A DNA stretch of 47,686 nt from Elusimicrobiota bacterium (GTDB lineage: Bacteria > Elusimicrobiota > Elusimicrobia > UBA1565): assembly GCA_016196755.1 (NCBI GenBank), contig JACPXC010000055.1:1-47686 (forward strand), given 5' to 3'. The notes under the pieces were generated by a model. The model ran no database searches. It saw nothing but the letters and a program-made list of their open reading frames with translations, and was not told the origin of the DNA. Shown piece by piece: positions 39,671 through 42,978 of this stretch (within the stretch, counting starts at the first letter, position 1; each line of letters opens with the position of its first letter). The translations under genes were made by a program, and so were the position numbers.

Positions 39671-40744
39671 GTGGCGCCGGACACTCTCAGGCGGCTCGAC
39701 GTACGCCGACTCGACGTCCCGATGCGCGAGCCCTTCGCCATCGCCGGAGGCTCGCAGGACGTCGTGGCCAATGTCCTGGTCCGGGCCGAACTGTCCGATG
39801 GGACGGTGGGCTGGGGCGAGGGAGCCCCGATGCCGGCCTTCAACGGCGAGACCCAGGCCGGAACGCTGGCCGCGGCCGCGAAGGCGGCCAAGGTCCTGCG
39901 CGGCGTACGCGCCGGCGCCTGGGGAGCCTGGGGTCAGCGGCTCGCCGCGATGCTCCCCGGACGCGCCGCCGCGCGCGCGGCGCTCGAGACGGCCCTGCTC
40001 GACGCCTGGACGCGGCGCCTCGGCACGCCCCTGCGCGTCCTCTTCGGCGGGGCCGAGGACCGCATCGTTACCGACGTCAGCATCCCGCTGGTCTCTCCCG
40101 AGGCGGCCGCCGAGGCCGGACGGCGCATCCGGGATTTCGGGGTGAAGCTCATCAAGATCAAGGTCGGAAAAGAGCCGGCGGCGGACGCCGCGCGGGTCTT
40201 GGCCGTCCACCGGGCTGCGCCGCGTTCGCGGCTCATGCTCGACGCCAATGGCGGCTACCGGGTCGCTCAGGCGCTCGAGCTCCTGTCCCGACTGCGCGCC
40301 GAGGGGGTCCAGCCGGAGCTCTTCGAGCAACCGGTCCCAGAAAAGGACTTGGCCGGCCTCAAGGCGGTGAGGCGCCGAGGGAAGATCCTCGTCGCGGCCG
40401 ACGAGTCGGCCTCCTCTCCGTCGGCCATCCTCGCCCTGGCCCGCGCCGGCGCCGTCGATGTCGTCAACATCAAGGTCATGAAGCTGGGCCTGCTCGGAAG
40501 CCTGGACTGCGCGCGCCTGGCCCGCGCCTCCGGCTTTTCCCTCATGATCGGGGGACTGGTCGAGTCGCGCCTCGGCATGACGGCCGCGGCCCACCTCGCC
40601 TGCGGGCTGGGGAGCTTCGCCTACGCCGACCTCGACACGCCCCTCTTCTTCGCCCGCGACCCGATGCGCGGCGTCCCCATCCGGCACGGCGGCCTCTACG
40701 ACCTCTCCAAGGTCCGGGCCGGAGTAGGCGTCGTCCCGGCTTGA
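39671..40744 (+). CDS. dipeptide epimerase (L-Ala-D/L-Glu epimerase-like, enolase superfamily)
   Basis: A 357-residue member of the muconate-lactonising subgroup. The catalytic lysine pair is visible: Lys162/Lys164 in IKIKVG and Lys268 in NIKVMKLG. Metal ligands are Asp191 (LDANGGY), Glu219 (FEQPV) and Asp244 (ADES). The N-terminal capping domain starts RLDVPMREPFAIAGGS. Epimerases of this type recycle peptidoglycan peptides; other dipeptide specificities occur. GTG at 39671 directly follows the helicase stop. The TetR promoter begins in its last codons. Confidence 0.88.
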   Translation: MAPDTLRRLDVRRLDVPMREPFAIAGGSQDVVANVLVRAELSDGTVGWGEGAPMPAFNGETQAGTLAAAAKAAKVLRGVRAGAWGAWGQRLAAMLPGRAAARAALETALLDAWTRRLGTPLRVLFGGAEDRIVTDVSIPLVSPEAAAEAGRRIRDFGVKLIKIKVGKEPAADAARVLAVHRAAPRSRLMLDANGGYRVAQALELLSRLRAEGVQPELFEQPVPEKDLAGLKAVRRRGKILVAADESASSPSAILALARAGAVDVVNIKVMKLGLLGSLDCARLARASGFSLMIGGLVESRLGMTAAAHLACGLGSFAYADLDTPLFFARDPMRGVPIRHGGLYDLSKVRAGVGVVPA

Positions 40745-40769
40745 CAAGCCGGCGGAGGCGTGCTAGAAT
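40741..40769 (+). promoter_or_regulatory. promoter of the TetR gene
   Basis: Perfect TTGACA (40741-40746), 17 nt, TAGAAT (40764-40769). Predicted initiation near 40776 gives a leader of about 23 nt before ATG at 40799. Confidence 0.8.
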
Positions 40770-40771
40770 TA

Positions 40772-40793
40772 ATTGACCATCCGGTAGGTCAAT
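40772..40793. promoter_or_regulatory. TetR operator (inverted repeat)
   Basis: ATTGACC (40772-40778) and GGTCAAT (40787-40793) are exact reverse complements around an 8-nt centre that is itself partly symmetric. It sits on the predicted transcription start directly before the TetR coding region, as expected for autorepression. Confidence 0.75.
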
Positions 40794-40798
40794 CAATA

Positions 40799-41431
40799 AT
40801 GGCCCGCAAGAGCGACCCCAACATCCGCACCCGCATCGTCAAGGAGGCCGAGCACTTGATGCACCTCAAGGGCTACCGCGCCACCAGCCTCGACGACATC
40901 GCGGCGGCGTGCTCGATGACCAAGGCCAACCTGCTGCACCACTTCGCGTCCAAGGAGGCCCTCGGCCTGGCCGTCCTCGACTACAAGGTCGTAGCCACCC
41001 GCGGCGGCTGCGTGGACCCGCTCAACGGCTGCTGCGACCCGGCCGCCGCCGTGCGCAACCTCTTCGAGGGCGCCGCGAAGGTCTTCCGCGGCAACGGCTG
41101 CCGGGCGGGCTGCTTCGTCGGCAACGTGGCCGCCGAGATGAGCGACGTCAGCGAGGCCTTCCGCGAGCGGGTCTCGGTCTTCTTTGAGGAGTGGACCGGC
41201 CGCCTCGAGACCGCCCTGCGGCGCGGCAAGGAACGCGCGCTCTTCAAGCCCGCCCTGCGTCCGCGCGCGGCGGCGGAGTCGGTCCTGGCGCTCTATCAGG
41301 GGGCGTTGATTCTCGCCCGGGCCCACCGCGACCCCGACGTCCTGCGCCGCGCCGGCACCCAGGCCGCGGCGCTCATCGAGGCGCATCGATTCGGGAAAAA
41401 GCCGTCCCAGGAGGTCGACCATGGGTCCTAA
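40799..41431 (+). CDS. TetR-family regulator with a cysteine cluster
   Basis: A 210-residue repressor. The HTH lies at about residues 24-50 (GYRATSLDDIAAACSMTKANLLHHFASKEAL). The ligand domain contains GCRAGCFVGNVAAEMSD, the GC-x-x-GN-x-AAE motif of the NemR/AcrR-type C-domain, in which a cysteine of NemR senses electrophiles or HOCl. Here there are six cysteines: 38, 71, 78, 79, 101 and 105, including CVDPLNGCC and CRAGC. A thiol- or metal-responsive switch is therefore plausible. ATG at 40799 is used because the operator precedes it. A nine-codon micro-ORF overlaps its end, and thiol oxidoreductase genes follow. Confidence 0.88.
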   Translation: MARKSDPNIRTRIVKEAEHLMHLKGYRATSLDDIAAACSMTKANLLHHFASKEALGLAVLDYKVVATRGGCVDPLNGCCDPAAAVRNLFEGAAKVFRGNGCRAGCFVGNVAAEMSDVSEAFRERVSVFFEEWTGRLETALRRGKERALFKPALRPRAAAESVLALYQGALILARAHRDPDVLRRAGTQAAALIEAHRFGKKPSQEVDHGS

Positions 41432-41450
41432 GACGCCCTGCGGCTGCTAA
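41421..41450 (+). CDS. possible micropeptide ending in Cys-Gly-Cys
   Basis: ATG at 41421 is preceded at 6 nt by a full AGGAGG (41409-41414), the best Shine-Dalgarno in this area, and reads MGPKTPCGC then TAA. It overlaps the last 11 nt of the TetR gene in another frame. The strong ribosome site with no longer reading frame after it suggests that the peptide itself, or ribosome occupancy there, matters. The Cys-Gly-Cys end could bind metal or react with oxidants. No family is known to me. Confidence 0.45.
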   Translation: MGPKTPCGC

Positions 41451-41468
41451 GCGCCGCTATATAAAGGG

Positions 41469-41511
41469 AAGGGCCGCCGCGGCCTGGCCGCGGCGGCCCT
41501 CTCCGATTTTT
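41469..41511 (+). terminator. rho-independent terminator (15-bp perfect stem)
   Basis: AGGGCCGCCGCGGCC (41470-41484) pairs perfectly with 41486-41500 around a single T, and CTCCGATTTTT follows. A loop of at least three bases would open one central pair. It ends the TetR transcript. Because it lies 5-20 nt before the next gene's ATG, it could also act as an attenuator for that gene. Confidence 0.8.
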
Positions 41512-41515
41512 CATC

Positions 41516-42034
41516 ATGCATCTAAAGAAAGCTCTCAACATAAGCGCGGCGGCCCTGGCTGTGGGGGTCTTGGCGTTTCTGGCCGTCCAACCAGGCGGGG
41601 GCCCCGCCGTCGGCACACCGGCCCCCGAGTTCCGCCTGGCCGACCTCTCCGGCCGCACCGCCACCTTGGCGGAATACAAAGGGAAGGTCGTCCTGCTGGA
41701 CTTCTGGGCCACCTGGTGCTCGACCTGCGAGGCCGAGCTCCCCGACCTCAAGGCCGTCCACCGTCGCTTCGCGAAGGACGACTTCGTCCTCCTGGCCGCT
41801 TCGCTCGACGAGGGCGGTCCCGAGGTCGTCGCCCGCTACGCGTCGGAGAAGGCCCTGCCCTACCGGGTGCTCTTCGGCGACCAGAACACCGCCGGCGCTT
41901 ACCGGATCTTCGGACTCCCCACCAAGTACTTGATCGACCGAGACGGCATCATCTCGCGCAAATACCTAGACGGCGTCCCCCTGCCCGACCTCGAAAGAGA
42001 CATCCAAGCCCAACTCGACCGGAGACCCTCATGA
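41516..42034 (+). CDS. TlpA/ResA-like thioredoxin, membrane-anchored
   Basis: A 172-residue periplasmic thiol oxidoreductase. An N-terminal signal-anchor (residues 8-25) is followed by a TlpA-type domain with APEFRLADLSGRTATLAEYKGKVVLLDFWATWCSTC; the redox pair is Cys68/Cys71. The cis-proline loop is FGLPTKYLID. The family reduces apocytochrome or other periplasmic disulfides. No Shine-Dalgarno is visible before ATG at 41516, which sits right after the terminator U-tract. Its stop overlaps the DsbA-like start (ATGA). Confidence 0.88.
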   Translation: MHLKKALNISAAALAVGVLAFLAVQPGGGPAVGTPAPEFRLADLSGRTATLAEYKGKVVLLDFWATWCSTCEAELPDLKAVHRRFAKDDFVLLAASLDEGGPEVVARYASEKALPYRVLFGDQNTAGAYRIFGLPTKYLIDRDGIISRKYLDGVPLPDLERDIQAQLDRRPS

Positions 42035-42978
42035 TGATGCTCCTGCTCTGCCTGCTCTCGCTCCTGACGCCGCCTTCATCCGCCGCCGCGCCCATAGACA
42101 AGGCCCGCCTGGCCGAGCACATCCACAAGGCCTTCAGCACCCCGGCGGCGATGAAGCTGACCGTCGGGGAGCTCTCCCCCTCCCCCGTCCCGGGCTGGCT
42201 GGGAGGCACGGTGGACGCCTCCGACGGCGAGCGCCGCTCCGCGCAGCCCATCCTGGTCTCGGAGGACGGCCGCTGGTACTTCTTGGGGGCGATGGCGGTC
42301 TTGGGCGCCTCGCCGGTCCCCGGCATGAAGGCGTTCCCCGAGGACCCCAACCTTCCTCCGGTGCACCTTTTCCCCGACGGCAAGCACGCCGTGGTCGGGA
42401 CTCCCAAGGACTTGAGCGTCGACCCGGACGCCGCAAACCGGGCCAAGATCTCCCTCAAGGACGCGCCAGCCACCGGCCCGGCCGACGCCGCGCTGACCCT
42501 GGTCGAATACTCCGACCTGCAGTGCCCCCACTGCAAGAAATCCCACGAGATCCTCGAGGCCGAGCTGGCCAAGCTGCCGATCAAGCTCCGCCGGGTGTTC
42601 AAGCACTACCCGCTCGACATGCATGCCTGGTCCTATGACGCCGCCATCGCCGCGGCCTGCGCCTCGCGGGTCAAGCCCGCCGCCGGCAACGCCGTCCTCC
42701 ACCGATTCTTCGCCGAACAGGAGAAGATCACGCCGGCCGACGTGCGGGCCAAGTCGCTGGAGTTCGCCAAGGCCGCCGGCCTGCCCGAGGCGGCGTTCGC
42801 GGCCTGCGTCGATAAGAAGGAGACCAAGGCCGTCGTGGAGGCCGACAAGCGCGAAGGCGACTCGCTGGGCGTCACCGGCACCCCCACCTTGTTCATCAAC
42901 GGGCGGAAGGTGCGCGGCTACGCATGGAGCGAGGTCAAGGCCGTGATCGACGAACTCTCCAAAGCCGCCAAGAAATAG
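42031..42978 (+). CDS. DsbA/DsbC-like thiol:disulfide interchange protein
   Basis: A 315-residue exported protein. A signal peptide (MMMLLLCLLSLLTPPSSAAA) and an N-terminal domain of about 115 residues (KLTVGELSPSPVPGW and LVSEDGRWYFLG, reminiscent of the DsbC/GsuE dimerisation-type fold) precede a DsbA-like domain with CPHC at 165-168 (YSDLQCPHCKKSHEI). The cis-Pro loop is VTGTPTLFINGRKV. It probably forms or isomerises disulfides in exported proteins such as the Cys-rich ones in this window. GGAG lies 6 nt before the first of three tandem ATGs. It is operonic with the TlpA-like gene. Confidence 0.85.
   Translation: MMMLLLCLLSLLTPPSSAAAPIDKARLAEHIHKAFSTPAAMKLTVGELSPSPVPGWLGGTVDASDGERRSAQPILVSEDGRWYFLGAMAVLGASPVPGMKAFPEDPNLPPVHLFPDGKHAVVGTPKDLSVDPDAANRAKISLKDAPATGPADAALTLVEYSDLQCPHCKKSHEILEAELAKLPIKLRRVFKHYPLDMHAWSYDAAIAAACASRVKPAAGNAVLHRFFAEQEKITPADVRAKSLEFAKAAGLPEAAFAACVDKKETKAVVEADKREGDSLGVTGTPTLFINGRKVRGYAWSEVKAVIDELSKAAKK

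Follow-up and report, generated by a model that had tools for sequence, protein, structure and literature searches.

A nine-codon open reading frame that follows a TetR-family regulator gene in an Elusimicrobia genome of 4.59 Mb recurs, nearly residue for residue, at 70 sites in 58 of 340 Elusimicrobiota genomes and 12 of 29 families (pattern searches combined), a conservation far beyond chance. On balance we favor the reading, drawn from sequence comparisons, that this micro-ORF is a genuine conserved protein-coding gene and that its product, MGPKTPCGC in the window (the whole stretch of DNA analyzed, 47,686 nucleotides), would act in trans as a small free dithiol. In the window it consists of the codons ATG GGT CCT AAG ACG CCC TGC GGC TGC TAA; six bases separate its ATG from AGGAGG, and the TetR gene stops inside it in a different frame (Table 1). 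Re-reading the sequence bore out a preliminary description of this nine-codon frame, its perfect Shine-Dalgarno sequence and its overlap with TetR. That description held the frame unlikely to be idle, a judgment that is strongly supported by the retention of the frame and its Cys-Gly-Cys (CGC) end across much of the phylum; the conservation check that it proposed found both in close relatives, and the attempt at refutation failed.

Table 1. Features of the window around the micro-ORF (all on the plus strand)
Feature	Position	Strand	Remarks
Enolase-superfamily gene upstream of TetR, presumably dipeptide-epimerase-like	39671..40744	+	Homologue upstream at 21/67 sites (position window)
Sigma-70-like promoter of TetR/micro-ORF transcript, TTGACA-17-TAGAAT	40741..40769	+	11/12 consensus; consensus match only
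Putative TetR operator, partly palindromic (ATTAATTGACCATCCGGTAGGTCAATCAAT)	40768..40797	+	Between -10 box and TetR start
TetR-family regulator, TetR_N + TetR_C_13, AcuR/NemR-like, 210 aa, six Cys	40799..41431	+	Family searches, alignment
Shine-Dalgarno sequence of micro-ORF, AGGAGG	41409..41414	+	GGAGG within 18 nt at 65/70 sites
Micro-ORF, MGPKTPCGC and stop	41421..41450	+	Conserved nine-residue gene
Strong hairpin after micro-ORF, 17 pairs, then GATTTTTC	~41467..41504	+	z -4.6; terminator-like score confined to minus strand; probable terminator or 3' end structure
TlpA/ResA-like thiol-disulfide oxidoreductase	41516..42034	+	Homologue within 2.5 kb downstream at 26/67 sites
DsbA-like thioredoxin-fold protein	42031..42978	+	Homologue downstream at 27/67 sites

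A degenerate pattern allowing up to two mismatches recovered 65 sites in 58 of the 340 genomes and 32 of 100 genera, and its reversed control recovered none; because this pattern resembled the peptide, the invariance among these first 65 sites arises partly by construction, and other patterns, together with anchoring on TetR, were used to remove the bias. Freeing residues 2-5 (ATG-N12-CCN-TGY-GGN-TGY-TRR) gave 70 matches in the 340 genomes against three for the control, 65 of them of the form M[G/A]P[K/R/Q][T/S/K]PCGC and the remaining five, all in our family f7, unrelated. When residues 4-6 and 8 were freed instead, across the 235 genomes of the class, Gly8 returned in 67 of 67 matches and Pro6 in 64. 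The three matches lacking Pro6 read MGPKGGCGC, and each is the second copy in its genome, the three genomes belonging to one genus. When residues 7 and 9 were free, 60 of 62 matches kept CGC and the other two were unrelated. The 70-site tally adds to the pattern matches a copy with a GTG start, a copy with Ala2 and an eleven-residue form, MGPKPKTPCGC, which a length-variable pattern run over 67 relatives identified, in genome G211, as the one real length variant, everything else being chance matches outside the pattern. The tally comprises 44 copies of MGPKTPCGC, 11 of MGPKSPCGC, five of MGPKKPCGC, three each of MGPRKPCGC and MGPKGGCGC, and one each of VGPKSPCGC, MAPKTPCGC, MGPQKPCGC and MGPKPKTPCGC. 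It counts both L054 and L094 of genome G018, which lie at the ends of two contigs; their flanks are almost the same, and the pair may represent a single locus that was assembled twice.

The micro-ORF is missing from families f7 (0 of 90 genomes, apart from chance matches), f8 (0 of 59) and f10 (0 of 5) and from the other classes (0 of 105), and with whole families lacking it, it is therefore not essential in the phylum. Searches of viral contigs returned no micro-ORF match, and those of plasmids only chance-level matches to a 47-base query and no match to the TetR protein at E 1e-20.

Loci selected through TetR, without use of the peptide sequence, lead to the same peptide. Across 56 genomes of the order we found 39 TetR matches at E ~1e-30 or better; all 35 of the closest orthologues (E 1.1e-53 or better, 47-100% identical) precede a micro-ORF, of nine residues in 34 cases and eleven in one, and the four weaker matches (33-38% identical) have none behind them. 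Two close relatives of the window locus, L007 (TetR 78% identical) and L008 (59%), have an identical peptide at the corresponding position; in both, a Shine-Dalgarno sequence precedes it and a codon has changed synonymously.

The variation that does occur within the frame indicates that selection acts on the protein, because third positions vary freely while the peptide remains about 99% identical and TetR only 55%. At the TetR loci, pairwise nucleotide identity of the micro-ORF is 99.7% at first and second positions and 61.7% at third positions, with pairwise identity of 99.3% for the peptide against 55% for TetR; over the 65 pattern sites, mean entropies at the three codon positions are 0.087, 0.139 and 1.22 bits. 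The frequency of GGAGG within 18 nt upstream of the start (Table 1) compares with 256 of 7,315 ATGs (3.5%) in the first 65 loci. These codon-position entropies, the pattern counts against their control and the 35 of 35 TetR orthologues lead us to reject a chance frame. A nucleotide element, an RNA or DNA signal that merely resembles a frame, would suit the shortness of the conserved stretch and its nearness to a hairpin, but it would not be expected to leave third positions free, to draw serine codons from both families (TCN and AGT) or to use all three stop codons, as the 65 sites do, and Rfam gave no match over its gathering score in the window. We consider such an element extremely improbable and, on the codon-position variation and the Rfam result, reject an RNA element.

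The overlap with TetR raises a further alternative, that the nine residues are the C-terminal tail of TetR, or of another upstream protein, reached through fusion or frameshift and preceded by an incidental Shine-Dalgarno sequence. The TetR frame does continue through MGPKTPCGC at 11 of 37 TetR loci, where a TetR with this tail might be produced in addition, but the other 26 have an intervening stop or a different frame, in all registers, and the same peptide also stands behind unrelated genes with stops between. Since the Shine-Dalgarno sequence and the ATG persist even where TetR runs into the peptide, we take the fusion as incidental; the unfused majority and the unrelated upstream genes rule out a TetR tail as the general case, and as an account of the peptide we regard it as very improbable.

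The genes around the micro-ORF were called by simple ORF listing and homology rather than by a trained gene finder; at GC-rich loci the longest-ORF caller often took the wrong strand, so that neighbors there rest on tblastn, and the homology counts for TetR, TlpA, DsbA and the epimerase leave out the three MGPKGGCGC sites. At 37 of 65 sites the micro-ORF comes after a TetR belonging to the same family as that of the window, and the typical order in f1-f3 is epimerase-like gene, TetR, micro-ORF, hairpin, TlpA and DsbA, where "epimerase-like" is a name given by resemblance of the window gene (three of the 21 upstream matches to it are weak and lie in the peroxiredoxin operon type of f6). One f2 locus, L109, has the epimerase, micro-ORF, TlpA and DsbA genes, and no TetR was found there. 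The micro-ORF is not tied to TetR, and the same peptide ends thioredoxin, peroxiredoxin, MerT/CopZ-type and YceI operons: it follows thioredoxin in f6, in operons with peroxiredoxin and DUF819, and thioredoxin alone in f4; in f9 it has peroxiredoxin upstream, after a gene that is presumably cyclophilin-like; and in f14 MerT/HMA and zf_CopZ genes lie upstream in one genome and YceI at three sites. MarR and nitroreductase genes also occur upstream, as do contexts with no evident thiol link, namely glycosyltransferase (L087), succinyl-CoA ligase (L100), patatin (L073, L106) and NmrA (L093, L149, L151).

What lies downstream bears on whether the peptide could act in cis. The preliminary description had suggested a leader whose translation affects the hairpin beyond it, and such a leader would work through translation of the peptide, or stalling at its Pro-Cys-Gly-Cys end in response to a change in thiols, Cys-tRNA or a metal, to control the hairpin and read-through into TlpA and DsbA. 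The hairpin past the stop is strong: at 54 of 67 sites its z against shuffled sequence is below -2, and it often lies 10-20 nt beyond the stop codon; the window TlpA gene shows no visible Shine-Dalgarno sequence or promoter-like site, and TlpA homologues recur downstream as listed in Table 1. Cysteine-codon leaders also exist in mycobacteria and offer a precedent, with short frames and cysteine codons near thiol or sulfur genes; in those leaders, however, the cysteine codons act in cis, whereas the micro-ORF often ends its operon and is conserved over the full peptide. Against a leader, a T-rich tail follows the hairpin at only 37 of 67 sites. The downstream genes vary widely, unrelated ones included, yet the whole peptide is kept with free synonymous codons, also at f9 sites with no downstream gene and at six sites examined for this (L095, L096, L097, L098, L102 and L147), each of which is followed by a gene in the opposite orientation. 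With no co-directional next gene at those six sites, a leader cannot be the general role: a position upstream of a co-directional regulated gene was found at the TetR-TlpA sites and not generally. Of the earlier suggestion there survives a possible additional role in cis, as an attenuator, where TlpA follows the hairpin, and we judge the leader unlikely as the explanation of the peptide. Codon-specific attenuation through Cys-tRNA alone is rejected, because residues other than cysteine are conserved as well.

A product acting in trans remains our preferred reading, and the suggestion in the preliminary description of a thiol- or metal-binding peptide agrees both with the invariant CGC and with the neighbors, namely thioredoxin, peroxiredoxin, TlpA/DsbA and MerT/CopZ. 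The comparisons show the gene, its protein-level conservation, its Shine-Dalgarno sequence, its partners and the conserved cysteines of TetR; we infer translation, autoregulation, redox or metal chemistry and stability. With its strong Shine-Dalgarno sequence, MGP[K/R][T/S/K]PCGC would probably be made at high yield from the final cistron of stress operons, and its two prolines and Gly-Pro start would probably slow its breakdown; the C-terminal cysteines would then cycle between dithiol and disulfide with neighboring thioredoxin-fold and peroxiredoxin partners, or bind a thiophilic metal. A metal-binding and a redox role are not separable by sequence, and the MerT/CopZ neighbor speaks for metal. 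More tentatively, and as a possibility for which we claim limited confidence, Elusimicrobia may make a ribosomally encoded low-molecular-weight dithiol by repeated translation of this nine-codon gene, with the dithiol carrying either electrons or thiophilic metals from one to another of the peroxiredoxin, thioredoxin and TlpA/DsbA-like proteins. Precedent for both halves of the proposal comes from published work: very short ORFs are described as reiteratively translated, the seven-codon mccA among them, and an eleven-codon version of mccA still is, with lower efficiency (PMC6495379, in part); and the CGC disulfide is given a potential of -167 mV, near that of protein disulfide isomerase, an enzyme for which CGC and RKCGC serve as small-peptide mimics (PMC4316792, in part, citing Woycechowsky and Raines 2003, Wang 2011). 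Those peptides are laboratory reagents, to which the natural GPKTPCGC and GPRKPCGC come close, sharing the Cys-Gly-Cys motif and, with RKCGC, its C-terminal position behind basic residues.

The microcin C7 precursor MccA (MRTGNAN) suggests another way in which so short a product could act, with the micro-ORF peptide serving as a ribosomal precursor whose C-terminal cysteine is modified by an enzyme encoded elsewhere, or being exported as a signal. MccA resembles it in having a gene to itself with under ten codons, of a length suited to reiterative translation, whose product is the peptide rather than a regulatory effect, and its seven codons are described as able to serve as a precursor (PMC6495379, in part); residue-level conservation, an invariant C-terminal cysteine and the very short frame also speak for a precursor. 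MccA sequences, however, vary except at Met and Asn and lie beside the adenylating enzyme MccB, whereas the micro-ORF is fully conserved, and among the genes read beside it we recognized neither an MccB adenylyltransferase nor any recurrent modifying enzyme or exporter. Whereas MccA ends in Asn, the micro-ORF ends in Cys at all 70 sites, in part because the patterns were built that way, and in 60 of 62 matches with residues 7 and 9 free; a signal would be expected to differ between lineages. A precursor role therefore strikes us as improbable.

Were the peptide a small diffusible thiol, its role would be similar to that of glutathione and bacillithiol, which differ in being made by enzymes and in carrying one cysteine, where the micro-ORF peptide would be ribosome-made and carries two. 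BshC (PF10079) was found in none of the 56 genomes of the order, and GshB (PF02955) matched strongly (E below 1e-15) in two and weakly in further genomes, three of which exceed the cut-off and four of which fall short, a family that is not specific for glutathione makers because E. coli and B. subtilis both match it in the control. This scarcity hints at room for another thiol; one of the two strong matches to GshB, a glutathione synthetase, is in G005, which has the micro-ORF twice, a point against the dithiol reading.

The peptide fits none of the families tested, being neither a general leader nor MccA-like nor a known RNA, and we infer its function from sequence and setting. Searches of the open-licence literature with exact strings and by topic gave no paper describing it, nor did we find there a natural gene for a CGC-type redox peptide. 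We call it new because no tested family fits and that literature yielded no ribosomally encoded small thiol. It would rank among the shortest genes known in which every residue is conserved over a large share of a phylum. The gene finder Prodigal has a default minimum gene length of 90 nt, and a length below the ordinary gene-finder cut-off would explain the missing annotation. If the proposed function is right, a gene-encoded thiol does in these bacteria what others do by glutathione-type biosynthesis, and the CGC end, together with the thioredoxin, peroxiredoxin, TlpA/DsbA and metal neighbors, offers a cheap and direct test of a ribosome-made redox-active or metal-binding small thiol as against an enzymatic pathway. 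The work also shows that genes of fewer than ten codons become findable by neighbor anchoring and third-position variation.

The window TetR combines TetR_N and TetR_C_13 domains with conserved candidate sensor cysteines, as in the NemR/AcuR type; across the 37 TetRs aligned, Cys101 and Cys105 are invariant and Cys38 occurs in 32. NemR is described as sensing electrophiles and hypochlorite through cysteines that include Cys106 (PMC7464077, in part), and the window TetR shares with that type its TetR_C_13-type C-terminal domain and a cysteine near the Cys106 position, differing by a second conserved cysteine four residues before and by the micro-ORF behind it. Because equivalog cut-offs are not reached (67.5 bits against 247 for AcuR), it is a relative of the named AcuR and NemR subfamilies rather than a member. 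The window TetR would thus be a thiol sensor controlling both itself and the peptide: it would repress its own promoter, Cys101 and Cys105 would probably sense electrophiles or oxidants, and its inactivation would turn on TetR and peptide together. Sequences resembling TGACCG/CGGTCA lie just upstream of, or overlap, the TetR start region in most of the 37 TetR loci, as judged by eye and not counted.

Several neighborhoods showed further recurrent genes. At L088-L094, peroxiredoxin, a DUF819 membrane protein (a family for which we know of no function) and thioredoxin form one operon, to which some loci add an epimerase-like or an NlpC/P60-like gene; an NmrA gene precedes the micro-ORF at L093 as well. 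From -1529 to +30 of the micro-ORF start, L056 encodes a MerR-like regulator, a MerT that carries a fused heavy-metal domain and, directly before the micro-ORF, a zf_CopZ protein, possibly a mercury/copper operon in Elusimicrobia. The MGPKGGCGC variant at L149-L151 stands before a gene that by eye resembles an undecaprenyl-diphosphate phosphatase, with an NmrA-like gene ahead in two of the three. Directly downstream of the micro-ORF at L051, L055 and L086 (f5, f12 and f4) is a 66-71 aa protein with a Cys-rich N-terminus, one membrane segment and then a GKCA..MCPV-like motif, and downstream at L052, L073 and L106 (f6, f3 and f15) lies a lipoprotein-like protein of about 150 aa with the motifs ILQADTDRHEG and CDFCAGAF, which by eye looks DsrE-like, as in sulfur relay.
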